Source: Thermoanaerobacterium xylanolyticum LX-11
GTDB taxonomy: Bacteria; Bacillota; Thermoanaerobacteria; Thermoanaerobacterales; Thermoanaerobacteraceae
Assembly (NCBI RefSeq): GCF_000189775.2
Contig: NC_015555.1
Span: forward strand, 817,001-881,000
Direction of reading: 5' to 3'
Length of the DNA: 64,000 nucleotides
The notes below the pieces were generated by a model. It was not told the DNA's origin. It saw only the letters and a list, made by a program, of their open reading frames with translations, and searched no databases. Numbering within the stretch: position 1 is the stretch's first letter; each line of letters begins with the position of its first letter. Positions 2,856 to 43,865 of the stretch are shown piece by piece. Position numbers and translations under genes: made by a program.

Positions 2856-2870
2856 TGGAGTGTGAGTATA

Positions 2871-3365: not shown

Positions 3366-3414
3366 TTTTGTGATATAATATAAATATCAATTGACGTTAA
3401 AGGAGATGCAATAC

Positions 3415-10872: not shown

Positions 10873-13800
10873 TGTGTTGATTGAAGAAGATCTAAGCCAA
10901 GAGCAATCACGAGCTCTTGATATAGGTAAAAACGTAGCATTAAAAGCCGGTGCTGGTTCTGGCAAGACGAGAGTATTGACTAAAAGGTACATAAAGCTTT
11001 TGAATGATGTGACTGATATCAAGATTGACAATATCGTCGCAATAACATTTACTCGGAAAGCTGCTGCTGAAATGAAAGAAAGGATAAGAAAAGAAATAGA
11101 ATCACTGTGCAAATCAGATAAGGATGGCAAAAAATGGACTGTATTTAGAGATTCACTGATATTTGCCAACATCGATACTATTCACGGTTTTTGCGAGAAA
11201 ATGATAAGAGATAATTTTGTCGAAACCTCAGTCGATCCTACGTTTTCTATTATGGATGAGGCGGAGGTTAGCACAGCAGTTAAAAAGATGGTGGAAATTG
11301 TGACAGGTGAAGTGATAAACGATGAAAAAAATAAATATATGTTAGCAACTGCATTAAAAAAATATCCTTCAAAGATATTTACGGGAAAAATGTTTCAATC
11401 TGAGGTAATAAGCTTATATTTCCGCATGAAAGAAGCTGGACTATCAGTTGAAGACATAAAATTGTCTTATGAAAGCGATGAATCAACAAAGGCCATGGAA
11501 AATTTGGCGCTTATAATCTTAGAGAAAATAGAGGAAAATTATAAGGCATTCAAGTCAAGCAAGAATTTGCTTGACTTTAACGACTTAGAGACGATTGCGC
11601 TAAAACTTCTTTCTAACGATATCATAAGAAACGATTATTTTGAAAGGTACAGATATATTCTCGTAGATGAGTTTCAAGATACGAATCGCCTTCAAAAAGA
11701 GATTATTTTAAAGCTTACTGAGAAAGATGGTAAGATTCCAGATGGCAAATTGTTTATTGTAGGAGATATAAAACAGTCAATATACGGTTTTAGAGGGACG
11801 GATTTTAGGATATTTGATGAGTTTTGCAGAAAAATAGAAGCAGATGGAAAAGTGCTTAATTTAAGCAATTGCTACAGAAGCACAAAAAACATCATATCAA
11901 CAATCAATGACGTCTTTAAAAATTTGATAGAGCCTTACGAAGAATTGAAGTATCAAAGCTTTGCTGACGAAGGCCCTAAAGTAGAACTCATTACTTACAA
12001 AAAAGATGATATAGTTAATGAAAAGAATGAAAGATATAAAAAGATAAAACAACTTTTGAAAGACGATGACAATAAAGGAAAGCTTAATGAGTTGCTGATG
12101 GAAGACGGAGCTTTGGCTAATTCAAGAAAGGATTTTCAGGGCAAGATTATAGCAGGTAGGATTTTAAAGCTTGTAGGCGAAGGATTTGAATATAAGGATA
12201 TTGCTGTACTTTTAAGAAGCAGGTCAAGTCTTAAAAGCATTGAAGGTGCACTTGCGGATTGCGGCATACCGTATTGCATCATAGGTGGGATTGGATTTTG
12301 GGATAAAAGGGAGATAATTGACATCATTTCGGTTTACAAATTGGCTTTTGACACATCGGATGAAATTGCGCTTCTTACAGCTTTAAGATCGCCTATTTTT
12401 GGATTTAGCGATGATGATTTATTTGCGTTCATGAATATATACAATGGCCAATGCATAGATGATCCGCTGGAAGCTTTAAAAAATTTTTCTCCGAAGTGCG
12501 GTGACGATAAATGGGTCATAAAAAGAGCTTGCAACATTTTGGATAAGATTTCGAAGATGAGGGGTGTATACAACCCATACGAAATATTCAAGATGATTTT
12601 AAAAATCACAGAGTATAAAAAACTTTTGATTTCATTGCCAAATGGGTATCAAAAATTCAGAAATGTTGAGAAGTTAGAGAGTATAATCAAAAGCTTTGAA
12701 GAGAAACGCATACTCGATTCAAAAGATTTGATTGAGTATTTAGATGCTTTGAAAGAGTCATCAAGTCTTGACTCTGAAGCCTTTTTGGATACTGAAGAAA
12801 GCAATGCCGTTAAGATTATGACTATTCATTCATCAAAAGGTCTGGAGTTTGATGCTGTAATAATACCTGACATGGATAAAGCTACTGATGGCATATCGGT
12901 GAGAAAGGCTCCTTTATTTATGCTAAGCGAAGAAGGTTACATTTTTTGTATAGGCGTCAATGATGATGGAGATTTGGATAAATCGGAAAACAGCTTATAC
13001 AAAGAGGAATATGACAGGTATCTTGAAAAGGAAAATATGGAGAGCAGGAGACTTTTTTATGTAGCTTCTACAAGGGCAAAGAAGTTTTTAGCGTTTATAG
13101 GGCAAATGAAAGATAATATAGACGACATTGACGAAGATAGCAAGCTTAACTCATTTATGAAACAGTTGCTATTTGCTATTAAAGATGGCTGTTCTAACAT
13201 AGACTACATTGATGGCACTTGTTTACAATCATATGCAAAGAACAAACTTGATTATGTAAAAGAATTAAATGAAGATGCAGATAAAATAAAGTTTGGTGGG
13301 TTGATAGATAAAATGCCTCTTAACGTTAAAGGCAACGTTTCTGTAACTGCATATATTGATTATCTGACGTGTCCTATGTTCTACTATTACAAATATATTG
13401 TATCGCTTACTGACGAGTATGTTGAATTAGATGGAAACAGTGATGATATTTACTCAGAAAGCGATGACAAAATAAGTGCTTTAGAAAGAGGGACGATTGT
13501 TCATAAAATACTTGAAACTTTAGATGATGATGACTATATTGATGTAAGTAATTTAAATGATGAAATCATCAAAAGGTATATTGACAATTACTACATGCTT
13601 AGAGATAAACATAGAAAGAAGATAAGTGGCAGATTATTAAAAAGATTGAAGGAATACAAATTTAGGGCGCCTATAGATGACAACATAAATTTAAACGGAG
13701 TAATTGATAGAATTGATATATACGAAAATGATGGAAATATTGAATCGTACATTTTTGACTATAAGACAAACAAAATAGATAGCGATGATGATTTGGAGAA

Positions 13801-14083
13801 AATAGCAAGACATTACACACCACAGATTCATGTTTATTCGCATGTTTTAAGGCGTTTAAAAACTATAAGTGGTTTTTCTCCAACTTTGAAAGGTGCTTTT
13901 TTGTACTTTTTAGATGTAGGCAAATACGTTGAAGTTGACATTTCTGATCTTTATATCATGGAAACATTAGAGAAAATCCTTAAGGCTACACCATTTTTAT
14001 TAGGTGCTAAAGGGATTGAAGAATATGTCAGCCGAAAAAGGGAATATTGCAGTATGTGTTTATACAACAAAATTTGCAGATAG
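10862..14083 (+). CDS. addA: AddA helicase-nuclease subunit
   Basis: 1073-aa UvrD-type (SF1A) helicase fused to a C-terminal nuclease. Motifs in order: Q motif (LSQEQSRALD), Walker A AGAGSGKT near residue 33, TFTRKAAAEM, LVDEFQDTN (Walker B), VGDIKQSIYGFRG, TIHSSKGLEFD, YVASTRAKKF. The nuclease has ERGTIVHKILE and FDYKTNK near the end. It is the translocating motor of AddAB and acts at DNA ends with Chi-like control. AGAGGTG precedes the ATG. It is slightly shorter than the Bacillus protein (about 1230 aa). Confidence 0.95.
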   Translation: MVCSVLIEEDLSQEQSRALDIGKNVALKAGAGSGKTRVLTKRYIKLLNDVTDIKIDNIVAITFTRKAAAEMKERIRKEIESLCKSDKDGKKWTVFRDSLIFANIDTIHGFCEKMIRDNFVETSVDPTFSIMDEAEVSTAVKKMVEIVTGEVINDEKNKYMLATALKKYPSKIFTGKMFQSEVISLYFRMKEAGLSVEDIKLSYESDESTKAMENLALIILEKIEENYKAFKSSKNLLDFNDLETIALKLLSNDIIRNDYFERYRYILVDEFQDTNRLQKEIILKLTEKDGKIPDGKLFIVGDIKQSIYGFRGTDFRIFDEFCRKIEADGKVLNLSNCYRSTKNIISTINDVFKNLIEPYEELKYQSFADEGPKVELITYKKDDIVNEKNERYKKIKQLLKDDDNKGKLNELLMEDGALANSRKDFQGKIIAGRILKLVGEGFEYKDIAVLLRSRSSLKSIEGALADCGIPYCIIGGIGFWDKREIIDIISVYKLAFDTSDEIALLTALRSPIFGFSDDDLFAFMNIYNGQCIDDPLEALKNFSPKCGDDKWVIKRACNILDKISKMRGVYNPYEIFKMILKITEYKKLLISLPNGYQKFRNVEKLESIIKSFEEKRILDSKDLIEYLDALKESSSLDSEAFLDTEESNAVKIMTIHSSKGLEFDAVIIPDMDKATDGISVRKAPLFMLSEEGYIFCIGVNDDGDLDKSENSLYKEEYDRYLEKENMESRRLFYVASTRAKKFLAFIGQMKDNIDDIDEDSKLNSFMKQLLFAIKDGCSNIDYIDGTCLQSYAKNKLDYVKELNEDADKIKFGGLIDKMPLNVKGNVSVTAYIDYLTCPMFYYYKYIVSLTDEYVELDGNSDDIYSESDDKISALERGTIVHKILETLDDDDYIDVSNLNDEIIKRYIDNYYMLRDKHRKKISGRLLKRLKEYKFRAPIDDNINLNGVIDRIDIYENDGNIESYIFDYKTNKIDSDDDLEKIARHYTPQIHVYSHVLRRLKTISGFSPTLKGAFLYFLDVGKYVEVDISDLYIMETLEKILKATPFLLGAKGIEEYVSRKREYCSMCLYNKICR

Positions 14084-14147
14084 TATTGGATTTTCGTCTG
14101 TAATATGTAATAATATGGTTAAGTATTATTTAATGGGGGGTGGGTAG

Positions 14148-15260
14148 ATGACAGACCCAAGGCTAAAAAAGCTTGCAAATCTATTGGTGAATTACTCTAC
14201 AAAAGTCAAAAGAGGAGATTTTGTATTGGTTCAAGCAGGAGATATTGCTATACCATGGATAAGCGAAGTAGTTAGGGAGGCAGTTAAGGCAGGGGCCCAT
14301 GTTGAGACATTGGTTGACATTCCTGATGTGTCAGAGATTATTTTAAAAAACTCTACCGATGAGCAACTTCTTATGGAAAAATATATTCAGAGAATTGCTC
14401 TTGAAAAAGCCGATGTGTGGCTTACTGCGTGGGCTAACAAAAACACAAAAGCTAATTCGAATGTAGATCCAGCTAAGCTTAAGTTGGCGACAAAAGGAGC
14501 GTCTTCATGGAGGAAAGTTTACTCTGAAAGAATGGGCAATGGTTCTTTAAGGTGGTGCGGTACACAATATCCTACACAGGCAGATGCACAAGAAGCTGAA
14601 ATGAGCCTAAGTGAGTATGAGGACTTTGTCTATGGCGCAGGTTTATTAGACAGCGATGATCCTATATCATTATGGCAAAAAATACGCATGGAGCAAGATA
14701 TATGGATTGATTATCTAAATAAAAAGTCAGAATTGCATATAGTATCAGAGGGAACTGACATATACGTCAATACGTCAGGTAGGAAGTGGATAAACTGCAG
14801 TGGTACAGAGAATTTTCCTGATGGAGAAATTTTTACATCACCTGTTGAAAACAAAATCAATGGTCACATCACTTTCAGCTTCCCAGGAATATACATGGGT
14901 AAAAGCATAGAAGTTATATACCTGGAAGTGGAGAATGGACTTGTCATAAAAGCTACGGCAGAAAAAGGTGAAGATTTATTGCACGCTTTGATGGACACAG
15001 ATGAAGGTGCAAAACATTTTGGAGAAGTAGCCATAGGCACCAATTACGGCATACAAAAATTTACAAGGAATATGCTTTTTGATGAGAAAATAGGAGGCAC
15101 AGTGCATATGGCGTTAGGTGATTCTATGCCTGAAGCAGGTGGGAAAAATCGTTCTGCTATCCATTGGGATATGCTTTGCGACATGAGGCAAGGTGGGGAA
15201 ATATACGCAGACGGTGAACTTTTCTATAAAGATGGCCATTTTATTAAAAGTGTTTTGTAA
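14148..15260 (+). CDS. M29-family (AmpS/PepS-type) aminopeptidase
   Basis: 370-aa metallo-aminopeptidase of family M29, a cytosolic enzyme trimming N-terminal residues of peptides; thermophile members (aminopeptidase T, AmpS) bind two Zn or Co ions. The C-terminal metal-binding segment is visible: VHMALGDSMPEAGGKNRSAI, then HWDMLCDMR and GELFYKDGHF. The EGTDI segment in the middle is also conserved. It starts with ATG behind GGGGGGTGGG and ends in a GC-rich hairpin terminator. Confidence 0.93.
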   Translation: MTDPRLKKLANLLVNYSTKVKRGDFVLVQAGDIAIPWISEVVREAVKAGAHVETLVDIPDVSEIILKNSTDEQLLMEKYIQRIALEKADVWLTAWANKNTKANSNVDPAKLKLATKGASSWRKVYSERMGNGSLRWCGTQYPTQADAQEAEMSLSEYEDFVYGAGLLDSDDPISLWQKIRMEQDIWIDYLNKKSELHIVSEGTDIYVNTSGRKWINCSGTENFPDGEIFTSPVENKINGHITFSFPGIYMGKSIEVIYLEVENGLVIKATAEKGEDLLHALMDTDEGAKHFGEVAIGTNYGIQKFTRNMLFDEKIGGTVHMALGDSMPEAGGKNRSAIHWDMLCDMRQGGEIYADGELFYKDGHFIKSVL

Positions 15261-15264
15261 GCTA

Positions 15265-15296
15265 AAAAAGGCGTTGGCATGAAGCCGCGCCTTTTT
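15265..15296. terminator. Intrinsic terminator after the M29 peptidase
   Basis: AAAAAGGCG (from 15265) pairs with CGCCTTTTT (ending near 15296). The tracts suit both strands, so it may also serve the small minus-strand gene at 15301. Confidence 0.8.
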
Positions 15297-15300
15297 AATA

Positions 15301-15432
15301 TTATACTGTAGGCTCTTGCTTATCGAGAATAAATACACCTGGTACTAAAAGCAATATTATGACAATTATCAAAACTATCCATACCCAGTAATAGTCGTCT
15401 TTTGGCTTCTTCTTGCAGTCAGTTCCAGACAT
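15301..15432 (-). CDS. Small single-pass membrane protein (43 aa)
   Basis: The minus strand encodes MSGTDCKKKPKDDYYWVWIV followed by an Ile/Leu/Val membrane helix (LIIVIILLLVPGVF) and a short polar tail (ILDKQEPTV). AAAAAAGGGGG lies 8 bases before the ATG. The pattern of a charged head, aromatic YYWVW, one TM helix and a tiny tail resembles small YjcZ-like sporulation or membrane proteins of Firmicutes, but I cannot assign a family. A strong RBS, a sensible membrane topology and a shared terminator support a real gene. Confidence 0.75.
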   Translation of the reverse strand: MSGTDCKKKPKDDYYWVWIVLIIVIILLLVPGVFILDKQEPTV

Positions 15433-15622
15433 TACAATACCCCCTTTTTTATATAAATGGGAACAGATACAATAACATATTATGATAAAAAAATATTTTT
15501 GTTACGGTATAAAATATTCCCTGTTTCTACAAATAATGATATAATGTTTATATCAAATGTTAAAATTTCTTGTCGTTTTTTCGATATAATGTATGGAACT
15601 TAGATATGTAAGGAGGTCAATA

Positions 15623-15829
15623 ATGCTAAATCGATGCTTCTGTGGGGGAGACGTAAAGATAGAGATGGCAGAATATGTGTTGATGAAGGGGAAAAAGACG
15701 GTAGTTTATAAAAATGTTCCAACTTACGTTTGTCAAAAATGCGGTGCTAAATATTATGACACAGAAGTATTGGATAAATTACTGAAAAAAGAAGAAAGAA
15801 AGTCTCTTTTTGGCTTGATTAAAGCGTGA
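15623..15829 (+). CDS. YgiT-type zinc finger protein
   Basis: 68-aa protein with a CxC...CxxC zinc-binding site (RCFCGG near residue 5, YVCQKCGAKYYD near residue 40), as in the N-terminal domain of MqsA/YgiT antitoxins. The HTH half of MqsA is absent. The ATG at 15623 is chosen because AAGGAGGT precedes it. No toxin gene (MqsR/DUF4258) is adjacent; the neighbour 18 bp downstream is an RluA synthase, probably in the same transcript. It could be an orphan antitoxin-like or nucleic-acid-binding protein (inference). Confidence 0.85.
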   Translation: MLNRCFCGGDVKIEMAEYVLMKGKKTVVYKNVPTYVCQKCGAKYYDTEVLDKLLKKEERKSLFGLIKA

Positions 15830-15847
15830 TCTTTAAGGTGTAAGGGA

Positions 15848-16708
15848 ATGAAAATAGTCGTTAATAAAGAAGATGCTTATTTGACATTGAAAGAGTTTTT
15901 ACTAAATAAAGGTTTTTCTCCAACTCTAATAAGAAAGTACAAAAATCGTGGTAAGATGCTTGTAAATGGAGAAATTTCAATAGTTAACAGGATTGTCTTT
16001 GAAGGAGACACTGTGGAACTTTTGCTAGATGATGAAAACACATCAGTAAGTCCTGAAAAAATGGATTTACATATATGCTATGAGGATGAAGACATTTTGG
16101 TTGTCAATAAAGATGCTGGTATAGTTGTCCACCCTACAGCCGGGCATCCTGATGGTACACTTGTAAATGGTGTTGCTTGGTATTACGAAAAAAATAACAT
16201 TAAGGCGCCAATAAGGCCTGTCAATAGGCTAGACAGAGATACATCTGGCTTAATCATTTTTGCAAAAAATCCTTTTATGCAAAATTATCTTCAAATTGTC
16301 TGCCCTATGAAAAAATTATACATTGCAATAGTCGAAGGAGATATGGATGGCAGAGGAACGATAGATTTGCCTATAAAAAGAAAACCAGGCAGCACCATTG
16401 AGCGAATGGTAGATGATGAAGGAGATACGGCAGTGACAGATTTTTATGTACTAAAAAGAAGCGAAAAGTTAAGCCTTGTAAAGTTAGAATTAAAGACAGG
16501 CAGGACGCATCAAATAAGAGTTCATTTAAGCCATATAGGACATCCCATAATTGGCGATACGTTATATGGTTCGGATACCTCTTATATAAAAAGGCAGGCA
16601 CTTCACGCTTATAGACTTACATTTAGGCAGCCTTTTATTGGAAAGTGCATCTCTCTCTATTCGCCAATTCCGGATGATATGAAGGCTGTTTTAAAGAATG
16701 CCTTCTAA
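15848..16708 (+). CDS. RluA-family pseudouridine synthase
   Basis: 286-aa pseudouridine synthase acting on rRNA or tRNA. An N-terminal S4-like region (LKEFLLNKGFSPTLIRKYKN ... GKMLVNGE) is followed by the RluA catalytic domain with RLDRDTSGL near residue 128 (catalytic Asp). KLELKTGRTHQIRVHLSHIG and GDTLYG further support RluA/RluD. The exact target uridine cannot be told. Its last 18 bp overlap the 3' end of the convergent radical SAM gene. Confidence 0.94.
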   Translation: MKIVVNKEDAYLTLKEFLLNKGFSPTLIRKYKNRGKMLVNGEISIVNRIVFEGDTVELLLDDENTSVSPEKMDLHICYEDEDILVVNKDAGIVVHPTAGHPDGTLVNGVAWYYEKNNIKAPIRPVNRLDRDTSGLIIFAKNPFMQNYLQIVCPMKKLYIAIVEGDMDGRGTIDLPIKRKPGSTIERMVDDEGDTAVTDFYVLKRSEKLSLVKLELKTGRTHQIRVHLSHIGHPIIGDTLYGSDTSYIKRQALHAYRLTFRQPFIGKCISLYSPIPDDMKAVLKNAF

Positions 16709-17584
16709 GTCAAAATCAGGAATAAAGCTTTCTGATGCACTTTCATCATCCTGGACAAACCCGTTTTCCAGACCTATTTCAAAGAAATATTCTATAGCTT
16801 CTTCATATTCTCTATTGCTTATCCTTTTATTTAATTCTTGGTATTTATTTGCGTTGTAATACGGTGTATATTGTCCCATAAGGCTTACATACACTTCGTT
16901 AGATAGATTATCCTTTATCCATTTCAGTATCTTTTTTGTCTCATCTAATTTCCCTGGCAATATTAAATGGCGTATAATTATTCCCTTTTTCATTATGCCG
17001 TCGTTATCAAAGACAGGGTTACCTACCTGACGATACATTTCTAAAATCGCCTTTGTAGCGTACTCAAAATAATGTGGTGCTTTAGAGTATTTTAAAGCAG
17101 ATTCATCACTGTAATATTTTAGATCAGGCAAGTATATATCTATGAGCCCTTCTAAAGTCTTTAGAGATTCTACATTTTCATACGCATTTGAGTTGTAAAC
17201 TATAGGTATGCTAAGTCCATTATTTCTAGCTATAATAATAGACTCTTTTATTTTTGGAACATATATTGTAGGAGACACAAGATTGATGTTGTGAGCACCT
17301 GCTTTTTCTAAATTCATAAAAATATCTGCAAGCTTTTCTGGTGAAACACTTACTCCAAAATTCCCTTGGCTGATTTTGTAGTTTTGGCAAAATACACATC
17401 TTAAATTGCAGCCTGTGAAAAATACTGTTCCAGACCCTCTGCTGCCGCTTATGCAAGGCTCTTCCCATTCATGAAGATATGCTTTTGCCACATGTATTTC
17501 ACTTGACATGCCGCAAAAGCCTACTTTTGCACTGCGATCAACATTACAATTTCTTGGACATATATTGCATACTTGTGATATCAT
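16691..17584 (-). CDS. PflX-like radical SAM protein (COG1313 type)
   Basis: 297-aa radical SAM protein. The N-terminus is Cys-rich (QVCNICPRNCNVDR ... GFCGMSS), and the SAM-cluster motif CNLRCVFC lies near residue 60. The arrangement matches the uncharacterised PflX/COG1313 group related to pyruvate formate-lyase activating enzyme. No glycyl radical enzyme is adjacent, so it is not assigned as a PFL activase. The gene is convergent with and overlaps the pseudouridine synthase gene by 18 bp. Confidence 0.88.
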   Translation of the reverse strand: MISQVCNICPRNCNVDRSAKVGFCGMSSEIHVAKAYLHEWEEPCISGSRGSGTVFFTGCNLRCVFCQNYKISQGNFGVSVSPEKLADIFMNLEKAGAHNINLVSPTIYVPKIKESIIIARNNGLSIPIVYNSNAYENVESLKTLEGLIDIYLPDLKYYSDESALKYSKAPHYFEYATKAILEMYRQVGNPVFDNDGIMKKGIIIRHLILPGKLDETKKILKWIKDNLSNEVYVSLMGQYTPYYNANKYQELNKRISNREYEEAIEYFFEIGLENGFVQDDESASESFIPDFDLEGIL

Positions 17585-22919: not shown

Positions 22920-22945
22920 AATTTCACACACTTAATCATTTTAGT

Positions 22946-23006
22946 TGACACACATTTGAATCACATCTAAATAAATTTCTTGCAATGTGTTTTACTGCAC
23001 ACATTT
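22946..23006 (+). promoter_or_regulatory. Paired upstream activator sites, hydroxyacid dehydrogenase promoter
   Basis: The distal site TGACACACATTT (22946-22957) and the proximal site CACACATTT (22998-23006) share CACACATTT with an offset of 49 bp. The proximal copy is part of an imperfect inverted repeat with GTGTTTT at 22987. The same pair with the same 49-bp offset lies upstream of the PTS operon, so these are probably binding sites of the LevR-like activator encoded between them. Confidence 0.65.
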
Positions 23007-23050
23007 TTTTATATTAAGCCTAAGGGTTTATTTTGCTGTGCGTCGCAACA

Positions 23051-23068
23051 TTGGCATCAAATTTGCAT
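23051..23068 (+). promoter_or_regulatory. Sigma-54 (-24/-12) promoter of the hydroxyacid dehydrogenase gene
   Basis: TTGGCATCAAATTTGCAT has the GG at 23053-23054 and the GC at 23065-23066, exactly 10 bp between, matching the TGGCAC-N5-TTGC consensus. rpoN is encoded at 42.5 kb and a sigma-54 activator at 24.3 kb. Confidence 0.8.
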
Positions 23069-23127
23069 CATTATATATGGGGGAAGATTGTCTCGTCTAA
23101 ATTACAATATTGATTGGAGGAGAGCCA

Positions 23128-24075
23128 ATGAAAGGTAAGATTTTGATAACTCCAAGATCTTTGCAGCATAAAAAAAGCGATATAATTGAAATGCTTAGTG
23201 ATTACGAAGTTCTAATGAATGATACAGGAAGACCATTTGATGAAAATGAATTAAAGAAGCTTATACAAGATGTTGACGGCATTATCGTAGGTGTAGATAA
23301 AATAACAAGAGAGATTTTGGCGAATGCTAAAAAATTAAAGGTTATCACAAAGTACGGTGTTGGATTGGATAATATTGATATAGAATACGCCAAAAAGTTA
23401 GGCATAAAGATAACTTACACGCCTGGTGCTAATAAAGAATCTGTTGCTGATTTAGTGTTTACGATGATATTGGAACTTAGCAGGCAACTATTTAAGATGG
23501 ATAAAATCGTAAGAGATAATAGATGGGATAAAGTCATTGGCAGGGAAGTATATGGAAAAGTCATTGGCATAATCGGCACGGGAAATATCGGCAAAAGTGT
23601 TGCCAAAAGGGCTACAGGATTTGACATGAGAATATTGGGCTATGACATGTTTCCTGACTATGAATTTGCAAAAGAGATAGGGATGGAATATGTTGACTTG
23701 CAGACTTTACTAAAAAATTCAGACTATATAACACTTCACATACCGTTTACAGAAAGCATGCATCATTTTATAGATAGAGAAGAACTAGAAATGATTAAAA
23801 CCACTGCATATATAATCAACACTTCACGTGGAGAACTTATAAATGAGGAAGCTTTGTACGAAGCTTTAAAGCAAAAAAGATTGGCTGGTGCGGCATTAGA
23901 CGTATTTGAAATAGAGCCTCCATATAATAGCAAATTGATTAAACTGGAAAATGTGATACTTTCTCCACATTGCGGTGCATCTACAGAAGATGCTATAAAT
24001 AGGATGAACATGATGGCTGTAGAGGGACTTAAAAGCGTCTTAGAAGGTAAGGAGCCTAAATTTGTATATGCATAA
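23128..24075 (+). CDS. D-isomer-specific 2-hydroxyacid dehydrogenase (phosphoglycerate dehydrogenase-like)
   Basis: 315-aa NAD-dependent dehydrogenase. The Rossmann motif GIIGTGNIGKSVAKRA lies near residue 148. The substrate Arg is in NTSRGELI and the catalytic His in LSPHCGAST. It lacks the C-terminal ACT domain of typical SerA. The sigma-54 promoter and activator sites shared with the PTS operon suggest that it acts in catabolism of the PTS substrate (for example reducing a keto-acid) rather than in serine synthesis; this is inference. The ATG at 23128 follows GGAGGAG. Confidence 0.85.
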   Translation: MKGKILITPRSLQHKKSDIIEMLSDYEVLMNDTGRPFDENELKKLIQDVDGIIVGVDKITREILANAKKLKVITKYGVGLDNIDIEYAKKLGIKITYTPGANKESVADLVFTMILELSRQLFKMDKIVRDNRWDKVIGREVYGKVIGIIGTGNIGKSVAKRATGFDMRILGYDMFPDYEFAKEIGMEYVDLQTLLKNSDYITLHIPFTESMHHFIDREELEMIKTTAYIINTSRGELINEEALYEALKQKRLAGAALDVFEIEPPYNSKLIKLENVILSPHCGASTEDAINRMNMMAVEGLKSVLEGKEPKFVYA

Positions 24076-24297
24076 TGTGCCAAACTTAAAATGATAAAGT
24101 GCAAAAAACTTGTTATCTGGCTTAATTATGGCTGTAATCGCGTTTTTTAAAAGAAATCAGCAAAAATTTCAGATTGAATAAAATTATTACTGGTGTTAGA
24201 ATTTTAATATCATTTTTGAAAATCCCGCATTTGATTTCTTAATATTTTATTTTTAAAGCACTGTTTATATTAAATGTAAAAGGAGCTGGTACAGGTA

Positions 24298-26952
24298 ATG
24301 GATTTCAAAAGTAACGAAAGCATAAAAAGAAGCGATAAAGTTTATAAAAAACTAAAGGAGTTGACGGAATCTTTAAACTTCAATGACTTTAACAGTCCTT
24401 TAGGATATGACGCTTTATATATAGGAAAGATACTAAACATCTCCAGAAGCAATACCAGCAGGGAACTTAACAAGCTATTAAAATCAGGAAAAGCGATAAA
24501 AATAAAAGGTAAGCCAGTTCTGTATTTAGATAGATTGTATTTTAAGGAAAAATTCAGTTACCGTTTTACAAAGTCTGTTTTTGAAGATAGAAAAGATTTT
24601 GTGAATACATTAACAAGCGCAGGAATACTGAACCGAGAATCATTTCAACTTAGTCAAAATAATCACAATAAATTTATTAATGCTAAAAAGATCAACAATA
24701 AATATTCTGAAAGCATACTTGATAATATCATCGGTGCCAAAAGCAGCTTAAAAGAACAAATTTCAAAAGCAAAAGCAGCCATATTGTATCCTCCAAATGG
24801 GCTTCATACGCTGATAATTGGCCCTACAGGGGTTGGGAAGTCCACATTTGCCGAAATGATGTACAAGTTTGGCGTAGAAGCTAAAGTTTTTAAAAGCAAT
24901 TCTCCTTTTGTAGTGTTTAATTGTGCTGACTATGCTCAAAATCCACAATTGCTTATGTCTCAATTATTCGGACATATTAAAGGTGCTTTTACTGGAGCAG
25001 ATAAAGAAAAAAGAGGCCTCATTGAAGAAGCTGATGGCGGTATATTGTTTTTAGACGAAATTCACCGCATGCCACCGGAAGGGCAGGAAATGCTATTCAC
25101 GCTTATTGACAATGGGAAATACAGACGACTTGGTGAGACTGAAAATGTTAGAAGTGTAAAAGTTCTGATTATTGCAGCAACAACTGAAAATCCTCATTCG
25201 GCTTTGCTTCACACTTTCTTAAGGCGTATTCCGATGGTAATTCAATTGCCAAGTCTTGACAAAAGAACGTTGATTGAGCGCTTTTTATTCATATATCAGT
25301 TCTTTTATGAGGAATACGAAAGACTAAATGTACCTATTAAATTAGAAAATGATGCGTTAAAAGCAATAATGCTTTATGATTGTCCAGGCAATATTGGACA
25401 ATTGAAAAGTGATATAAAGTTAATTTGTGCAAGAGCATTTTTGGATTATATAATTGAGGAAAAAGAGATGGTAGAGGTCTCGTTATCAACATTACCGCAA
25501 AATGCAAAAGAAGGCCTTTTGAAAATTCACAATTTGAGGGATGAGATTGTATTCAAGGAAATAAGCAATAATGGAGATATAGTATTTAGCAAAAACACCG
25601 TAGGCGTAAAAGATAAATTGAACATTAATTTTCTAAAAAGTTCCTACAGTGCAGATGATGATTTGTATGACTTCATAATGGATAACTGGGAAAAATTTAA
25701 CAGACAAGGGATGCCATCAGAGCACATAAGGGAAAACATAGAAAATCAAATACAATTGTACTATAAAAATTATCTATATCCAATAGAACAGAATACTGAC
25801 GGCGTAAACAGAAGTGTTTTGTTTAAGTTTGTTGATCCGTATATATTGACTGCTGTGGAATATGCTTTTAATGCCGTTCGTGAAAGCTTTGATGGAGTAA
25901 TAACTCAGAAAGCAATTTATCTATTGTCATTTCACATAAAAACAATGGTTGAGAGGCTTAAAGTAGGAATTGCCATTTCGCATCCTGATAGAGAAAGTAT
26001 AGCAAGAAGTTATAAATCCGCTTATAGTGCTGCAAATGTCATAAAAGAGAGGCTTGAAGAAAAATTGAATATGGACATTCCTGAAGATGAGACAGCTTTT
26101 ATAGCGATGTTTTTGCAGGCGTTGCAGTATGGAAAGAATAGCAGCAAGATTGGTATATTAGTTATGGCACATGGAAATAGCACTGCCAGCAGTATTGCGG
26201 AAGTAACCAATAGACTTCTTGGCACTGATCATGTAAAGGCTTTGGATATGCCGTTGGAAGAAAAACCGGAGGTGACTCTTAATAAAGCTATCAATATGAT
26301 AAAAGAGATTGATCAAGGTAAAGGTGTACTGATTCTTGTAGATATGGGGCTTCTTAGGACTTTTTCTGACATTATTACCGAAAAAACCGGTATAAAAACC
26401 AGGACTATTGAAATGGTCAGTACTCCATTAGTGCTTGAAGCTACAAGAAAGGCTTTGACTCCAGATATGGATATAGACAAGCTTGTAGATGAGATAATAT
26501 CTTTGCATCCATTGTTAAGTGGTGATGGCGACGCAAGCAATATTACATCTGGTACCAACAATATTTCGTTTTACGAGAAAAATTTAAAAGACCTTTTAGC
26601 CCAGGCATTGAATTTTTTAAATCCTGATAAGGTTTATCCTGTATTAAAAGGAATTTTAAATGATATTCTCAATGAGAAGGATAAAAAAGTAGAGGACGAG
26701 ATTTGGATAAAATTTTTATTTCACTGTGCTTGTTTGATAGAGAGGGGTATTAGAAAGGATTATTTGCCAAATAACGATTTAGATGTGATAAAAAGCCGCA
26801 AAAATGGTTCATTTCAATTGATAAAGAAGCATTTTGAGGCTGTGGAGAATCTCTTTGGAATAGAGATTCCAGATAGTGAGTATGCATATGTGGCTGAGAT
26901 GATTGACACATATATTGACACACTTGAACTTAGGAACATGACACACATTTAA
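24298..26952 (+). CDS. LevR/ManR-type sigma-54 activator with PTS regulatory domains
   Basis: 884-aa transcription activator. In order: N-terminal winged HTH (about 1-75; ISRSNTSRELNKLL), AAA+ sigma-54 interaction domain with Walker A GPTGVGKS (about 176), GAFTGA loop (about 229) and GGILFLDEIH Walker B (about 247), PRD1 (about 505-610), an EIIA(Man)-like domain with phosphorylatable His in VMAHGNS (about 624), and a C-terminal PRD2 region. Activity of such proteins is set by PTS phosphorylation. It probably activates the PTS operon 3' to it and the dehydrogenase 5' to it. AAAGGAG lies 11 bases before the ATG. Confidence 0.94.
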   Translation: MDFKSNESIKRSDKVYKKLKELTESLNFNDFNSPLGYDALYIGKILNISRSNTSRELNKLLKSGKAIKIKGKPVLYLDRLYFKEKFSYRFTKSVFEDRKDFVNTLTSAGILNRESFQLSQNNHNKFINAKKINNKYSESILDNIIGAKSSLKEQISKAKAAILYPPNGLHTLIIGPTGVGKSTFAEMMYKFGVEAKVFKSNSPFVVFNCADYAQNPQLLMSQLFGHIKGAFTGADKEKRGLIEEADGGILFLDEIHRMPPEGQEMLFTLIDNGKYRRLGETENVRSVKVLIIAATTENPHSALLHTFLRRIPMVIQLPSLDKRTLIERFLFIYQFFYEEYERLNVPIKLENDALKAIMLYDCPGNIGQLKSDIKLICARAFLDYIIEEKEMVEVSLSTLPQNAKEGLLKIHNLRDEIVFKEISNNGDIVFSKNTVGVKDKLNINFLKSSYSADDDLYDFIMDNWEKFNRQGMPSEHIRENIENQIQLYYKNYLYPIEQNTDGVNRSVLFKFVDPYILTAVEYAFNAVRESFDGVITQKAIYLLSFHIKTMVERLKVGIAISHPDRESIARSYKSAYSAANVIKERLEEKLNMDIPEDETAFIAMFLQALQYGKNSSKIGILVMAHGNSTASSIAEVTNRLLGTDHVKALDMPLEEKPEVTLNKAINMIKEIDQGKGVLILVDMGLLRTFSDIITEKTGIKTRTIEMVSTPLVLEATRKALTPDMDIDKLVDEIISLHPLLSGDGDASNITSGTNNISFYEKNLKDLLAQALNFLNPDKVYPVLKGILNDILNEKDKKVEDEIWIKFLFHCACLIERGIRKDYLPNNDLDVIKSRKNGSFQLIKKHFEAVENLFGIEIPDSEYAYVAEMIDTYIDTLELRNMTHI

Positions 26953-26999
26953 TTGAATAAAAACATTTACATGAAGAAGTGTTTTCATGGCACACATTT
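26939..26999 (+). promoter_or_regulatory. Paired upstream activator sites, PTS operon promoter
   Basis: The distal TGACACACATTT (26939-26950) overlaps the last codons of the activator gene; the proximal CACACATTT is at 26991-26999. The offset is 49 bp, as upstream of the dehydrogenase gene. The proximal copy again forms an imperfect inverted repeat with GTGTTTT (26979). The proximal site lies about 11 bp (one helical turn) further from the -12 box than in the other promoter. Confidence 0.65.
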
Positions 27000-27054
27000 T
27001 GAAAATGATGTTTTTTTCTCCTAAGAGACATTCATTTGCAGATAGGTCATTTTC

Positions 27055-27072
27055 ATGGCATGATTTTTGCAT
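27055..27072 (+). promoter_or_regulatory. Sigma-54 (-24/-12) promoter of the mannose-family PTS operon
   Basis: ATGGCATGATTTTTGCAT has the GG at 27057-27058 and the GC at 27069-27070 with 10 bp between, a canonical -24/-12 element, about 50 bp upstream of the IIA start. Confidence 0.85.
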
Positions 27073-27121
27073 TATAGAATTTATGAAAGATAAAACATCG
27101 CATTTTGAAAGGATGATGATC

Positions 27122-27523
27122 TTGATAGGGATATTGGTTGTAACACACGGTGAGTTTGGTAAGGAATTATTAAAAAGTGCTGAGTTAATATTGGGAAAAC
27201 AAGAAAAAGTTATGTGTTTGGGATTAAATGAAGGTGATGATGTTTTAAAACTAAAAGATAAAGTAAGGCAAGGCATCATTGATCTTGATGAAGGAGAAGG
27301 TGTGTTGGTCTTGACAGATATGTTTGGGGGAAGTCCTTTTAATGTGACATCAGCTAACTTAAAGGAATTGACCTTTAATTATTTGACAGGAGTAAATTTA
27401 CCTATGCTTATTGAAGCATTATCGTCAAGGCATAGCTATGATGTTGATACATTAGCTGATATGTGTTATAAGTCGGGAATTGAAGGGATTAGAAACATGA
27501 ATAAAGAAATACTCAACAAGTAA
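27122..27523 (+). CDS. PTS mannose/fructose/sorbose family IIA component
   Basis: 133-aa EIIA(Man) domain protein. The N-terminal IGILVVTHGEFG carries the phosphorylated His (residue 9), and VLVLTDMFGGSPFN is the family core motif. It relays phosphate from HPr to the IIB subunit. A TTG at 27122 is chosen (GAAAGGA about 9 bases upstream, matching the usual family start); ATGs at 27113 and 27116 overlap the RBS. First gene of the sigma-54 operon IIA-IIC-IID-IIB. Confidence 0.93.
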   Translation: MIGILVVTHGEFGKELLKSAELILGKQEKVMCLGLNEGDDVLKLKDKVRQGIIDLDEGEGVLVLTDMFGGSPFNVTSANLKELTFNYLTGVNLPMLIEALSSRHSYDVDTLADMCYKSGIEGIRNMNKEILNK

Positions 27524-27603: not shown

Positions 27604-28383
27604 ATGCATGTAAGTATTAGTGCATCACAAGCTGCAATCATTGCTTTATGGGTGGCTATAGTCGAGGCACGTGCTCTTGGTTATTCAACATTGATGCTTC
27701 GCTTCACGCCTTTGATGACAGGTCTTGTAGTAGGTATCGTCATGCACAATGTACCGGAAGCAATGGTAGTCACTGCTGCCATACAGTTAATCTACATGGG
27801 GTTAATCGCACCTGGTGGAACATTGCCAAGTGAGCCAGCAGTTGCGGCTTCTATAGCAGTTCCGGTTGCGGTTATGGCACATCTTGATCCATCAGCAGCA
27901 ATTGCAATCGCAGTGCCTGTAGGACTATTAGGGTCATACTTGTATTCATTCAGATTCCTTTTGAATACGTTTGTATTACGACTTACGGATAAGTATGCGG
28001 AAGAATTAAACGATAGAGGCTTGACATTGACAATAATTGTTTTGCCTATTTTAGTGAGTCTTGTGTTGTTCTTCCCAGCTATATTTATAGCGCTTTACAA
28101 AGGAACTCCATTGATAGCAGCGTTGATAAAAACAGTCACAGCCGGCAAGCTATTCCATGTTTTGACGGTGATAGGAGGAGGACTACCTGCGTTAGGAATT
28201 GCATTGACACTAACAGTCATAGGCAAGAGAAAATTTGTCGTATTTTTCCTCTTAGCATACTTTATGGCTGTCATACTAAAATCATTAAATGTAAATACTG
28301 TAACGTACGCTGTCTTAGGAGGAATAATGGCATATCTCTACGTTATGTTTACAAGCAAAGAAGCAGATAGCCAACAAATTTGA
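27604..28383 (+). CDS. PTS mannose/fructose/sorbose family IIC component
   Basis: 259-aa polytopic membrane permease subunit of the mannose-family PTS. Conserved segments: LWVAIVEARALGYSTLML at the N-terminus, PEAMVVTAAIQLIYMGLIAP and GGTLPSEPAVAASIAV. It forms the sugar channel with IID. AAAGGAGG precedes the ATG. The family transports hexoses, hexosamines or sorbose; specificity cannot be read from sequence. Confidence 0.94.
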   Translation: MHVSISASQAAIIALWVAIVEARALGYSTLMLRFTPLMTGLVVGIVMHNVPEAMVVTAAIQLIYMGLIAPGGTLPSEPAVAASIAVPVAVMAHLDPSAAIAIAVPVGLLGSYLYSFRFLLNTFVLRLTDKYAEELNDRGLTLTIIVLPILVSLVLFFPAIFIALYKGTPLIAALIKTVTAGKLFHVLTVIGGGLPALGIALTLTVIGKRKFVVFFLLAYFMAVILKSLNVNTVTYAVLGGIMAYLYVMFTSKEADSQQI

Positions 28384-28397
28384 AGGAGGTAAGTGGC

Positions 28398-29282
28398 ATG
28401 GAAGATGTAAAAGCGAAGAACAGTGTAAATTCGTCAGAAATTGATGACAGCAGCAAAAAAATCACAAGAAAAGATTTGCTTTTAGGATGGTTTAGATGGT
28501 GGTACGCCAATGAAATACCTCATACATTTGATAGAATGTTGGCACCCTCACTTTTGTTTGGGTTAATGCCTATTTTAAGGAAAATATACAAAAAGAATGA
28601 GGATCTTAAAGAAGCGTATAAAAGGCATCTTTTGTTTTACAATACGCAAGCAGTATGGGGCGGTGGCACAATACTTGGAATAACGGCATCATTGGAGGAG
28701 GAAAGGGCTAAAAAGCTAAATGAAGGCAAAATCGATGAAGCAGTTGATCCAGAGATCATAAATAGTACGAAAGTTGGATTGATGGGACCTTTGGCGGGCA
28801 TAGGCGACGCAATAGATTCAGGTACGGTGCAGTATATTTTGATAGGCATATTCCTACCGTGGGCAAAAGCTGGCAGTGCATTGGGAGCTCTTCTTCCTTG
28901 GATATTGTTTGTTGCACTGACATTCACATATGGATATTATTTTACTGAATTGGGATACAGGCTTGGACGTTCTGCAGTCGTTGAAATTGTAAGCGGTGCA
29001 AGAATTAGAAAAATCATTGATGGATTATCTGTTTTAGGTACTTTTATGATGGGAATTTTGGCGGCTTCTTATGTGACAGTAAATACATCGTTAAAATGGA
29101 CTTTGTCAGGAAAACAATTCGTCTTACAAGATATTTTAGACAAAGTATTACCTGGGTTGTTACCACTACTGACAGTTATGCTTGTATACTGGTATTTCTC
29201 AAGAAAAGGTTTAAAAATAGTGAAAGTGCTTTTGTGGCTAATAGTCATATTTGCGGTTTTAGGCTTTACAGGACTTTTATAA
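28398..29282 (+). CDS. PTS mannose/fructose/sorbose family IID component
   Basis: 294-aa IID membrane subunit. A hydrophilic N-terminus (about 20 residues, charged) precedes DLLLGWFRWWYANEIPHTFD. GLMGPLAGIGDAIDSGTVQY is the IID signature, and several C-terminal membrane helices follow. The ATG at 28398 sits behind GGAGGT, 15 bp after the IIC stop. It works with IIC as the sugar channel. Confidence 0.94.
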   Translation: MEDVKAKNSVNSSEIDDSSKKITRKDLLLGWFRWWYANEIPHTFDRMLAPSLLFGLMPILRKIYKKNEDLKEAYKRHLLFYNTQAVWGGGTILGITASLEEERAKKLNEGKIDEAVDPEIINSTKVGLMGPLAGIGDAIDSGTVQYILIGIFLPWAKAGSALGALLPWILFVALTFTYGYYFTELGYRLGRSAVVEIVSGARIRKIIDGLSVLGTFMMGILAASYVTVNTSLKWTLSGKQFVLQDILDKVLPGLLPLLTVMLVYWYFSRKGLKIVKVLLWLIVIFAVLGFTGLL

Positions 29283-29329: not shown

Positions 29330-29361
29330 TCTATTTTAAATAATGAGAAAGGATGATCATT

Positions 29362-29865
29362 ATGGGAGAAATCATTTTTGCCAGAATAGATGATAGACTT
29401 ATACATGGTCAAGTTATGACAAAATGGGTAAAAGGGTATAATTGCAACTCAATATTCGTCATTGATGACCAATTAGCAAAGGATGAATTCATGAAAAATA
29501 TTTACATCATGTCTGCATCTACTGCTAATATTACATTGAAGATATTGACCGTCGATGATTCAATAAAATTGTGGGAAAAAGATCATTACGACGGATTTAA
29601 AGTTATATTATTGTTTAAAAATATAAAAACAGTCAAAGACACCATTGAAAAAGGACTGCCTATAAAGAAGCTAAACATTGGCGGTATAGCAAAAAGCGTC
29701 GACAGGAAATTCATAATACCGACTGTAAGTCTTAACAAAGAAGAGACGGAATCACTTTTAAAACTTGAAGAAAATTATGGTGTGGAAATATTTTTCCAGA
29801 CAGTACCTGAAAGCAAGAGAGTTGGACTTGATGCAGCACTTGGCGTCTTTAACATTAAAAGATAA
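29362..29865 (+). CDS. PTS mannose/fructose/sorbose family IIB component
   Basis: 167-aa cytosolic IIB subunit. RIDDRLIHGQVMTKW carries the phosphorylated His (residue 15) and the family signature. It transfers phosphate from IIA to the incoming sugar. The ATG at 29362 follows GAAAGGAT. The gene order A-C-D-B differs from the Bacillus lev operon (A-B-C-D). No dedicated catabolic enzyme lies in the operon itself. Confidence 0.94.
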   Translation: MGEIIFARIDDRLIHGQVMTKWVKGYNCNSIFVIDDQLAKDEFMKNIYIMSASTANITLKILTVDDSIKLWEKDHYDGFKVILLFKNIKTVKDTIEKGLPIKKLNIGGIAKSVDRKFIIPTVSLNKEETESLLKLEENYGVEIFFQTVPESKRVGLDAALGVFNIKR

Positions 29866-29925: not shown

Positions 29926-30116
29926 AACAAGATGGTCCTGAGGAGTTTAGTTACGGTGAATTTGTTTTCAACCAACACCATGACAACGGGAATTTGGGTT
30001 CAATTACGTATGAAAAGCCCACGTTTTAAGGGACTTCAGAAGTAATTGACAGGATACCCACTTTAGAAGCGGGCTTGAAAACATAGCCGAACGGCTTCGC
30101 GGGATAGATTGGATGT
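29926..30116 (+). ncRNA. ssrS: 6S RNA
   Basis: About 190 nt between a sigma-A promoter and a strong terminator, with no coding potential. The 5' part (GGTCCTGAGGAGTTTAGTTA ... GAATTTGTTTTCAACC) strongly resembles the start of Bacillus 6S-1 RNA. TCCTG near the 5' end can pair with CGGGA near the 3' end to close the long rod with a central bubble. 6S RNA binds sigma-A holoenzyme and down-regulates it in stationary phase. Ends are approximate. Confidence 0.78.
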
Positions 30117-42515: not shown

Positions 42516-43865
42516 ATGAAGCTGGATATGGGACTTAATTTAAAACAAGTACAGAAATTATTGATGACGCCTCAGCTTAAACAAGCCATTGAGATATTAC
42601 AGCTAAATTCGTACGAGCTAAATGAGCTTATCACAAGTGAATTGGAAACCAACCCTATGCTGGAGGCGTACGAAGATAAGGAAGACATCATTGAGATTTA
42701 CCATGAATTAAATAAAAATAGCGACCTTGAAAAATACAATTACAGCAGCGATGATGAAGAAAGAGACGACTTAAGCTTTGAAAACATGGTCTCGACTGAT
42801 ACGTCCCTCACAGATCATTTGCTGTTTCAACTTCATATAACACCTCTTACAAAGAAAATAAAAGAGATATGCAAAGTCATAATTTACGATCTTGACAGCA
42901 ATGGTTATCTAAACGATGATATCGAAAAACTCAGTGAAGATTACAATTACAGTGAAGAAGATATTATGACGGCTTTAAATGTAGTGCAATCATTTGACCC
43001 GCCTGGGATCGCAGCGAGAAATTTAACGGAATGCCTCATGCTTCAGTTAAAAAGCAAAAACATGTATAATGGCGTAGTAAAAGAAATTGTGGAAAATTAT
43101 TTAAACGAAATTGCGGACAACAAGCTTTCGTTTATAGCAAAGAAGTTGAATGTGGACATTAGAGAAGTGCAGAATGCTGTAGACGAGATAAAAAAGCTAA
43201 ATCCGAGGCCTGGAAGTAGTTTTTCAAGCTACAATGATATAAAATACGTCATTCCAGATGCTTATATAAAGAAGATAGACGGCGATTATGTTGTGCTTAT
43301 AAATGAGTCTTTGTATCCTGGCTTGAGGATAAATAAGTCTTATGAAAGTATTTTGACTGCTACTGATGATGACAATACAAGAAAATACCTTTCAAATAAA
43401 ATTCAGTCAGCTATGTGGCTTATAAAAAGCATTGAGTCGAGAAGGGATACTTTGTACAAAGTGTTAAGCGCGATAGTGAAAGAGCAAAGGTCATTTTTTG
43501 ACAGAGAGCAGAAATACATTAAACCTATGAACTTAAAGAAGATTGCAGATGCAGTAGGAGTTCATGAATCGACGGTAAGCAGGGCAGTAAACGGAAAGTA
43601 CGTTGATACACCTTTAGGTGTTTTTGAAATCAGATACTTCTTCCAAAGCGGCATCGGCAATGGCGATGGTGAGATGTTTTCGCAGGAAATGATAAAAGAG
43701 ATGATAAAGCAATTGATAAACGAAGAAGACCCTCAAGATACTTTAAGCGATCAAAAAATCGCTGAGATTTTGTCTCAAAAAGGCATAACGATATCGAGAA
43801 GGACTGTCGCTAAATACCGAGAAGAGATGAATATCCCATCGTCCAACAAGAGAAAAAGATATTGA
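42516..43865 (+). CDS. rpoN: RNA polymerase sigma-54 factor
   Basis: 449-aa RpoN. Region I is Gln/Leu-rich (LNLKQVQKLLMTPQLKQAIE), the central core-binding region includes DPPGIAARNLTECL, and the C-terminal DNA-binding part ends with the RpoN box SRRTVAKYREEMNIPSSNKR. It recognises -24/-12 promoters and needs AAA+ activators; the LevR-like activator and two such promoters are in this window. It sits just upstream of cggR, as in several Clostridia, and is separated from it by a terminator. Confidence 0.96.
   Translation: MKLDMGLNLKQVQKLLMTPQLKQAIEILQLNSYELNELITSELETNPMLEAYEDKEDIIEIYHELNKNSDLEKYNYSSDDEERDDLSFENMVSTDTSLTDHLLFQLHITPLTKKIKEICKVIIYDLDSNGYLNDDIEKLSEDYNYSEEDIMTALNVVQSFDPPGIAARNLTECLMLQLKSKNMYNGVVKEIVENYLNEIADNKLSFIAKKLNVDIREVQNAVDEIKKLNPRPGSSFSSYNDIKYVIPDAYIKKIDGDYVVLINESLYPGLRINKSYESILTATDDDNTRKYLSNKIQSAMWLIKSIESRRDTLYKVLSAIVKEQRSFFDREQKYIKPMNLKKIADAVGVHESTVSRAVNGKYVDTPLGVFEIRYFFQSGIGNGDGEMFSQEMIKEMIKQLINEEDPQDTLSDQKIAEILSQKGITISRRTVAKYREEMNIPSSNKRKRY

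Follow-up and report, generated by a model that had tools for sequence, protein, structure and literature searches.

The stretch analysed here (the window) comprises 64,000 nt of Thermoanaerobacterium xylanolyticum LX-11 (GCF_000189775.2, NC_015555.1, forward strand, 817,001-881,000). Within it, two sigma-54 promoters flank the gene of a LevR-type activator and share a common set of spaced repeated sites. The genes concerned are the following.

23128..24075, forward strand: D-isomer-specific 2-hydroxyacid dehydrogenase, 315 aa (PF02826 1.2e-60, PF00389 2.8e-30)
24298..26952, forward strand: LevR-type sigma-54 activator, 884 aa (PF00158 1.2e-43; PF00874 in two stretches; PF03610 2.4e-15)
27116..27523, forward strand: PTS EIIA, mannose family (PF03610 4.8e-26)
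27604..28383, forward strand: PTS EIIC, mannose/sorbose family (PF03609 7.3e-54)
28398..29282, forward strand: PTS EIID, mannose family (PF03613 2.8e-86)
29353..29865, forward strand: PTS EIIB, sorbose subfamily (PF03830 3.2e-47)
42516..43865, forward strand: rpoN, the sigma-54 factor (PF04552 1.2e-64, PF04963 6.3e-62, PF00309 2.7e-16)

The activator is of the LevR type in that it carries an AAA+ sigma-54 interaction domain with GAFTGA, two PRDs and an EIIA-Man-like domain (PF03610 at 619-732), the order being putative N-terminal DNA-binding region, AAA+, PRD, EIIA-Man, PRD. No Pfam HTH was matched at the N-terminus, and the stretch between EIIA and the second PRD, where an EIIB-Gat-like domain was sought, had no Pfam match. 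Candidate phosphorylation histidines lie in VMAHGNS and FHCACLIER, and the orthologues that share the array of sites described below show good conservation of the stretch SRSNTSRELNKLL..KIKGKPVLYLDR. Membership of the NCBIfam equivalog DagR was rejected, the score being 569 bits against a curated cut-off of 1400. The mannose-family PTS is complete, with EIIA-Man, EIIB-Sor, EIIC-Sor and EIID-AGA all present.

The promoters, recognized by sequence pattern, and the repeated sites upstream of them are listed below.

22924..22935, forward strand: site B of the dehydrogenase promoter, TCACACACTTAA, a weak copy, 22 bp before site C (24 bp in G002 and G003)
22946..22957, forward strand: site C of the dehydrogenase promoter, TGACACACATTT, 107 bp to the -24 GG
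22983..23006, forward strand: site D of the dehydrogenase promoter, CAATGTGTTTTACTGCACACATTT, forward half-site 22995-23006, exactly 49 bp from C
23051..23067, forward strand: -24/-12 promoter of the dehydrogenase gene, TTGGCATCAAATTTGCA
26904..26915, forward strand: site A of the PTS promoter, TGACACATATAT, within the activator gene
26916..26927, forward strand: site B of the PTS promoter, TGACACACTTGA, within the activator gene
26939..26950, forward strand: site C of the PTS promoter, TGACACACATTT, in the last codons of the activator gene, 118 bp to the -24 GG
26975..26999, forward strand: site D of the PTS promoter, AGAAGTGTTTTCATGGCACACATTT, forward half-site 26988-26999, exactly 49 bp from C
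27055..27071, forward strand: -24/-12 promoter of the PTS operon, ATGGCATGATTTTTGCA

Both promoters match TGGCA-N6-TTGC, with a GG-to-GC spacing of 12. The original prediction placed a distal and a proximal CACACATTT exactly 49 bp apart upstream of each promoter (22949 to 22998; 26942 to 26991); this offset and all site and promoter coordinates are exact to the base. Two sites per promoter proved to be an incomplete count, as three to four copies are present at each (additional ones at 26904 and 26916, and a weaker one at 22924). The PTS promoter has four copies in the same direction, A-12-B-23-C-49-D, and the dehydrogenase promoter has B-22-C-49-D. An inverted repeat formed with GTGTTTT before each proximal copy had also been proposed. 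GTGTTTT is indeed present at both, and in site D of the dehydrogenase promoter a reverse half-site lies back to back with the forward one, but the repeat is not a rigid dyad, because the GTGT...ACAC spacer varies between 6 and 9 bp (dehydrogenase promoter 8 bp, PTS promoter 9 bp, G006 promoter 6 bp).

The uniqueness of the sites was assessed by pattern searches of the 2.53-Mb genome, in which TGACACACATTT occurs twice, both times at this locus. The 49-bp CACACATTT pair, with up to two mismatches, likewise has two matches genome-wide, both here, and none in the reversed control. In the window, 0.02 such pairs are expected and two are observed without mismatch, a number that 0 of 100 shuffles reached. 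Over nine genomes of the genus, CACAC-N84-114-TGGCA-N6-TTGC has matches only at the two promoters here and at the corresponding ones of G002 and G003. Since neither the pair nor the CACAC/-24/-12 combination is found elsewhere in the genome, the two operons are consistent with a complete regulon, as had been suggested, with weak or single sites elsewhere possible.

A search for the motif pair in related genomes, which had been proposed with the original prediction, found it at the orthologous promoters of G002 and G003. The full array, A-12-B-22/23-C-49-D, is kept in G000, G002, G003 and G006. In G006 the array (12/22/49) is also kept beside an activator homologue of 58% identity that drives a different PTS. 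In a second genus, with activators 54-57% identical, A-12-B-22-C is kept, but site D and the step of 49 bp leading to it are not, the step there being about 20 bp or, to a weak copy, 53 bp. The exact spacing of 49 bp is a feature of Thermoanaerobacterium-like genomes and not a general rule. In every orthologue lineage, A to B is 12 bp and B to C is 22 or 23 bp. G014 provides a natural activator swap: it has the same PTS and dehydrogenase (EIIC 79%, EIID 77%, EIIB 69%, dehydrogenase 67%) with an activator only 33% identical, and behind this unrelated activator the TGACACAC array is absent from the operon. Judged from these genome comparisons, the array tracks the activator and not the target genes, being kept with orthologous activators and gone where the activator is swapped, which supports well the earlier proposal that the sites are shared sites of this activator. 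The three genomes in which both promoters occur are closely related to one another (activators 93-100% identical), and in their dehydrogenase promoters the sites are not significantly better conserved than the spacers (58/65 vs. 143/169, p = 0.25). A scan of named genomes for the activator returned distant relatives only.

The start of the proximal 12-mer lies 58 bp from the -24 GG in the dehydrogenase promoter and 69 bp in the PTS promoter, a difference of 11 bp, from which a common DNA face had been claimed on the strength of two promoters. This claim gains support from six promoters, in which site C lies 107, 107, 117, 118, 128 and 170 bp from the -24 box, fitting whole 10.5-bp helical turns. 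The six values, which are not fully independent, are in phase at 10.5 bp (R = 0.985, p = 1.1e-5; 2.4e-4 when any period from 9.5 to 11.5 is allowed).

Taken together, the repeated sites very likely serve as upstream activating sequences for the LevR-type activator whose gene lies between the two promoters. The activator would bind half-sites arranged in a row (core ACACAT, flanked 5' by TGAC/TGGC), roughly 60-155 bp ahead of the -24 box, and, by DNA looping, would contact sigma-54 RNA polymerase on a fixed face of the DNA. One target operon would be the dehydrogenase gene, with transcription possibly reading on into the activator gene, and the other would be the mannose-family PTS, EIIA-EIIC-EIID-EIIB. 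Activity would depend on substrate availability and PEP status, presumably through phosphorylation of the PRD and EIIA domains by the PTS.

The regulated pathway most likely imports a sugar acid (a hexonate or keto-hexonate), as gene neighbourhoods suggest. Relatives have the orthologous dehydrogenase gene behind the same PTS, together with genes for a KDPG/KHG (Eda-family) aldolase, 6-phosphogluconate dehydrogenase, ribose-5-phosphate isomerase B (RpiB) and altronate dehydratase, and in orthologous operons an Ldh2-family dehydrogenase also stands beside this PTS and dehydrogenase. These neighbours lend indirect support to the sugar-acid substrate first suggested. The mere presence of 6-phosphogluconate dehydrogenase is uninformative as a correlate of the dehydrogenase, because nearly all genomes of the order have one; the informative part is its adjacency, seen in G006, G012, G014 and G015. 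An ordinary hexose of the mannose/fructose type could instead be imported, with no sugar acid involved and the dehydrogenase serving as a fermentative D-lactate-type enzyme. Mannose-family PTSs usually carry hexoses or amino sugars, the dehydrogenase falls under the cut-off of every NCBIfam equivalog, and the only sugar-acid gene adjoining the PTS in the window is the dehydrogenase itself, the operon having no aldolase and no dehydratase. The sugar-acid genes of the orthologous operons argue against this reading, which we consider possible but rather unlikely. Families and solved structures were not decisive on the dehydrogenase substrate, phosphoglycerate dehydrogenase and glyoxylate reductase being the best matches and a probable 2-ketogluconate reductase the sixth.

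A bolder form of the sugar-acid reading, which we regard as doubtful, is that the PTS takes up a keto-hexonate such as 2-ketogluconate, to be reduced after phosphorylation to 6-phosphogluconate by the co-regulated dehydrogenase. On this view, activation would require a larger assembly of the protein, set on a fixed ruler of DNA (half-sites at 12, 22 and 49 bp, all in helical phase with the promoter), with an enhancer partly embedded in, and shaping, the activator's own C-terminal codons. No description of a PTS for such a keto-hexonate was found in the literature searched.

Another regulator, e.g., a CRP/FNR-type protein, might own the sites, with the LevR-type activator binding at other places. 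In the dehydrogenase promoter, site D reads AATGTG-N8-CACATT (TGTG-N8-CACA within 22983-23006), the geometry of a CRP box. However, the PTS promoter has a spacer of 9 and the G006 promoter one of 6, and a CRP-type dyad was rejected because of this difference between copies. Furthermore, sites A to C are single half-sites in one direction, the array goes with the activator and is missing where an unrelated one takes its place, and the pair occurs nowhere else in the genome, unlike the sites of a global regulator. This makes ownership by such a protein very improbable.

Sites A, B and C of the PTS promoter fall within the 3'-terminal part of the activator ORF (end at 26952), and one could suppose that the dyad at site D is the only real activator site and that the other three are by-products of coding constraint in the C-terminal tail. 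A and B lie in frame, giving ..IDTYIDTL.., and their threonines recur in relatives. Yet the residue before each threonine varies across orthologues (D, S, G, N), always within RRC-ACR codons: the codons are invariably GAC/AGC/GGC/AAC followed by ACA/ACG, and C-ending codons are the minority of their sets in these genes. Site C is retained in several relatives even where it lies at or past the stop codon, and copies of B and C also precede the dehydrogenase gene, in DNA free of coding constraint. We therefore find it highly unlikely that coding constraint produced these sites. Hardly credible at all is a functionless origin by chance or recent duplication: CACACATTT alone is short (0.99 expected in the window) and the 49-bp layout is common to both promoters, as duplication might give, but chance is ruled out for the pair by the genome-wide count and shuffles, simple duplication of one promoter is ruled out because the DNA between the sites is unlike in the two, and the spacing is conserved over 58% protein identity.

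This type of switch is already known, and the present case is a clean fresh example, with part of the switch lying in the final stretch of the activator gene, in which the sites are very probably activator binding sites. The D-glucosaminate PTS of Salmonella, with its activator DgaR, pairs a LevR-type activator with a mannose-family PTS for a sugar acid, and KDPG aldolase acts in the pathway. The system described here is alike in its activator and PTS and in the KDPG aldolase gene of the relatives' clusters, but it has a 2-hydroxyacid dehydrogenase instead of an ammonia-lyase, none of which was seen in the gene clusters examined. DgaR is mentioned in PMC4987338. LevR of Bacillus subtilis acts on the levanase operon from an upstream activating sequence at about -125, as cited in PMC10864463. 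The likeness to LevR, a sigma-54 activator with AAA+, PRDs and EIIA-Man controlling a mannose-family PTS from an upstream activating sequence, is one of domains and layout; here, in contrast, there are two target operons, several half-sites, sites inside the activator gene and a 2-hydroxyacid dehydrogenase as target. CelR (Bacillus thuringiensis / Clostridium acetobutylicum), also a LevR-type PRD activator, has three upstream sites of which two contribute in vivo (PMC10864463); several upstream sites are predicted here too, but CelR serves a cellobiose operon and, as far as described, its sites lie outside the activator gene. In the sigma-54 regulons of Clostridiales, multiple activator sites likewise lie 100-250 bp upstream of -24/-12, the activator gene adjoins its target, and four groups contain PRDs (Nie et al. 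2019, PMC6615313). Table 1 of that study has no regulon pairing a PTS with a 2-hydroxyacid dehydrogenase, and Thermoanaerobacter-type names are absent from its main text. Our literature search found no paper on this regulon.

The array defines a specific predicted binding-site pattern for a LevR-type activator in organisms that are probably thermophilic anaerobes (Thermoanaerobacterium, Thermoanaerobacter), and predicts its two target operons. It also offers evidence from evolution that activators of this kind retain sites on a single face of the helix, as measured from the promoter. The gene content suggests that the PTS serves a sugar acid, for which there is a short list of candidates. Thanks to the natural activator replacement in G014 and to the 58% homologue paired with a different PTS, the site assignment can be put to a direct test. 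In the same genomes, a paralogous LevR-type activator has distances to the -24 box (about 105-109 bp) that vary too little to test phasing and do not contradict it; its layout is comparable, with AATACACATATGTGTATT over its stop codon.

The two motif pairs that the original prediction placed upstream of the dehydrogenase and PTS promoters are present in the window sequence exactly as described, with a spacing of 49 bp both times. TGACACACATTT starts at 22946 and 26939, a second CACACATTT lies 49 bp beyond the first in both promoters alike, and canonical -24/-12 elements lie downstream of both pairs (23051-23067 and 27055-27071). Genome-wide (2,534,358 bases), TGACACACATTT occurs twice, both times in the window. 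When the 49-bp pair was searched with 18 specified bases and two mismatches allowed, two matches were found in the genome, both exact and both in the window, compared with none for the reversed control and a mean of 0.02 in window shuffles. Among nine genomes of the genus, CACAC followed 84-114 bp on by TGGCA-N6-TTGC was found only at both promoters here and at the corresponding ones of two sister species. Extra copies were sought by a scan with TGRCACACWTTT, which found copies beyond the noted pair, every copy in the same direction.

Half-sites found by the TGRCACACWTTT scan (window positions)
22924, site B (weak), dehydrogenase promoter
22946, site C, dehydrogenase promoter, 22 from B
22995, site D, dehydrogenase promoter, 49 from C
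26904, site A, PTS promoter
26916, site B, PTS promoter, 12 from A
26939, site C, PTS promoter, 23 from B
26988, site D, PTS promoter, 49 from C

The proximal copy had been read as part of an inverted repeat. A reverse half-site does adjoin D (CAATGTGTTTTA/CTGCACACATTT), but D is no rigid dyad, because the number of bases separating GTGT from ACAC differs: 8 (dehydrogenase promoter), 9 (PTS promoter) and 6 (the related genome G006). Between C and D, ATAAAAACATTTACAT (26958-26973) is identical in the window's genome (G000) and G006, whereas the remaining C-D spacer has diverged; it may mark an additional weak site or a bend.

Orthologues of the LevR-type activator were gathered across the order (24 genomes); those from the same genus are 98, 93 and 81% identical and those from a second genus 54-57%; G006 has a second homologue (58%) beside a different PTS, and G008 a 58% fragment. 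The A-12-B-22/23-C arrangement is present in all orthologue lineages, site A of G012 and G008 being assigned by eye as CAGCACATATTA. The expected recurrence of the motif pair in relatives held in part: C-49-D is retained in G000, G002, G003, G006 (where D is degenerate, TGAAACACTTTG, with another copy 22 bp further) and the 58% homologue locus (TGACACGCAAAA-49-TGGCACGCTTAA), but D is shifted or weak in the second genus. When the PTS intergenic region was aligned for four genomes, conserved columns were more frequent in sites than in spacers (39/54 vs 72/162, P = 3e-4). For the dehydrogenase promoter, compared among three close genomes only, site columns are not better conserved (P = 0.25). The activator orthologue of G018:C14 (about 2512-3513) is in fragments, and no promoter array or PTS gene was found behind it within the stretch examined.

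Sites A and B fall within the final codons of the activator gene. The residue preceding each of two threonines varies there (D, S, G, N), and the codons are without exception GAC, AGC, GGC or AAC, then ACA or ACG. These C-ending codons are a minority in their codon sets (7-40% in the same genes), and the product of their fractions over four separate lineages is roughly 1e-6 by hand calculation. Site C is retained in several relatives though at or just past the stop codon. This codon pattern suggests that A and B are under selection at the DNA level.

A natural activator swap was observed in G014 (locus L060, flipped coordinates 8080-16823), where the same PTS-dehydrogenase-aldolase operon (EIIC 79%, EIID 77%, EIIB 69%, dehydrogenase 67% identical) accompanies an unrelated LevR-type activator, only 33% identical. 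The G014 operon promoter is without the TGACACAC array. Conversely, the array is retained where orthologous activators adjoin other PTS genes (the G006 homologue, G010 and G011). Judging from these sequence comparisons, the array goes with the activator and not with the target genes. A paralogous LevR-type activator of the same genomes, in both genera (L066-L082), has a dyad AATACACATATGTGTATT that spans its own stop codon and lies about 105-109 bp upstream of the -24 box, with further half-sites present; placing a site at the activator gene's end may therefore be a layout that recurs within the LevR-type family in these genomes.

Distance between site C and the -24 box (counted to the first G of its GG)
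Dehydrogenase promoter, 107 bp
PTS promoter, 118 bp
G006, 128 bp
G006 homologue, 117 bp
G012, 170 bp
G011, 107 bp (site C, TGGCACATGTAA, placed via its 22-bp distance from B)

These six distances equal 107 bp plus 0, 1, 2, 1, 6 and 0 helical turns, within about 1 bp, in agreement with the proposal that the same DNA face is kept. The phase fit gives R = 0.985 at 10.5 bp (P = 1.1e-5 vs random distances; P = 2.4e-4 with free choice of period from 9.5 to 11.5), the six values being partly dependent, as some promoters are homologous. The homologous PTS promoters differ in length by +10, -1, +52 and -11, each near a whole number of turns.

Activators of this class loop to sigma-54 polymerase, and rpoN lies at 42516-43865. 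LevR/CelR-type proteins recognize sites upstream of the promoter, and PTS phosphorylation switches their activity (PMC10864463). The window activator, with AAA+/GAFTGA, PRD, EIIA-Man and PRD domains, would by analogy bind its upstream sites, respond to PTS phosphorylation and loop to the polymerase. A search for plus-strand terminators in the interval from the dehydrogenase gene to the activator gene found none, so transcription could run on into the activator gene and give positive feedback. It is well known that sigma-54 promoters can have several activator sites upstream and that activator genes can lie beside their targets (PMC6615313, PMC10864463). The literature searched contained neither the window regulon nor its motif; the motif, codon imprint and phasing are new details.

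Related genomes have the orthologous dehydrogenase gene 3' of the same PTS. The pair is accompanied by a KDPG/KHG aldolase (G006, G008, G012, G014), an Ldh2-family dehydrogenase (G008, G012, G015) and a 6-phosphogluconate dehydrogenase (downstream in G006 and G014, just upstream of the activator in G012 and G015); G006 also has ribose-5-phosphate isomerase B and altronate dehydratase parts, both named from reading the sequence. A second LevR-type system of the same genome (G000:C1, about 1004000-1017600, in locus L059, 1002000-1019500) comprises a LevR-type activator, a galactitol-family PTS, two D-2-hydroxyacid dehydrogenases, two sugar-acid dehydratases (altronate/galactarate and enolase-superfamily) and a KDPG aldolase. 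Because of these neighbors and this second system, the PTS substrate is likely a hexonate or keto-hexonate, in keeping with the suggested sugar acid. The best specific guess, a tentative one, is 2-ketogluconate, phosphorylated and then reduced to 6-phosphogluconate. The L059 system is interrupted by a transposase-like gene, and sigma-54 promoter matches lie at either end of its activator gene. In the window, a 6S RNA (RF00013, 68.5 bits) lies at 29932-30109, directly 3' of the EIIB gene; a hairpin and a T run come after the RNA.
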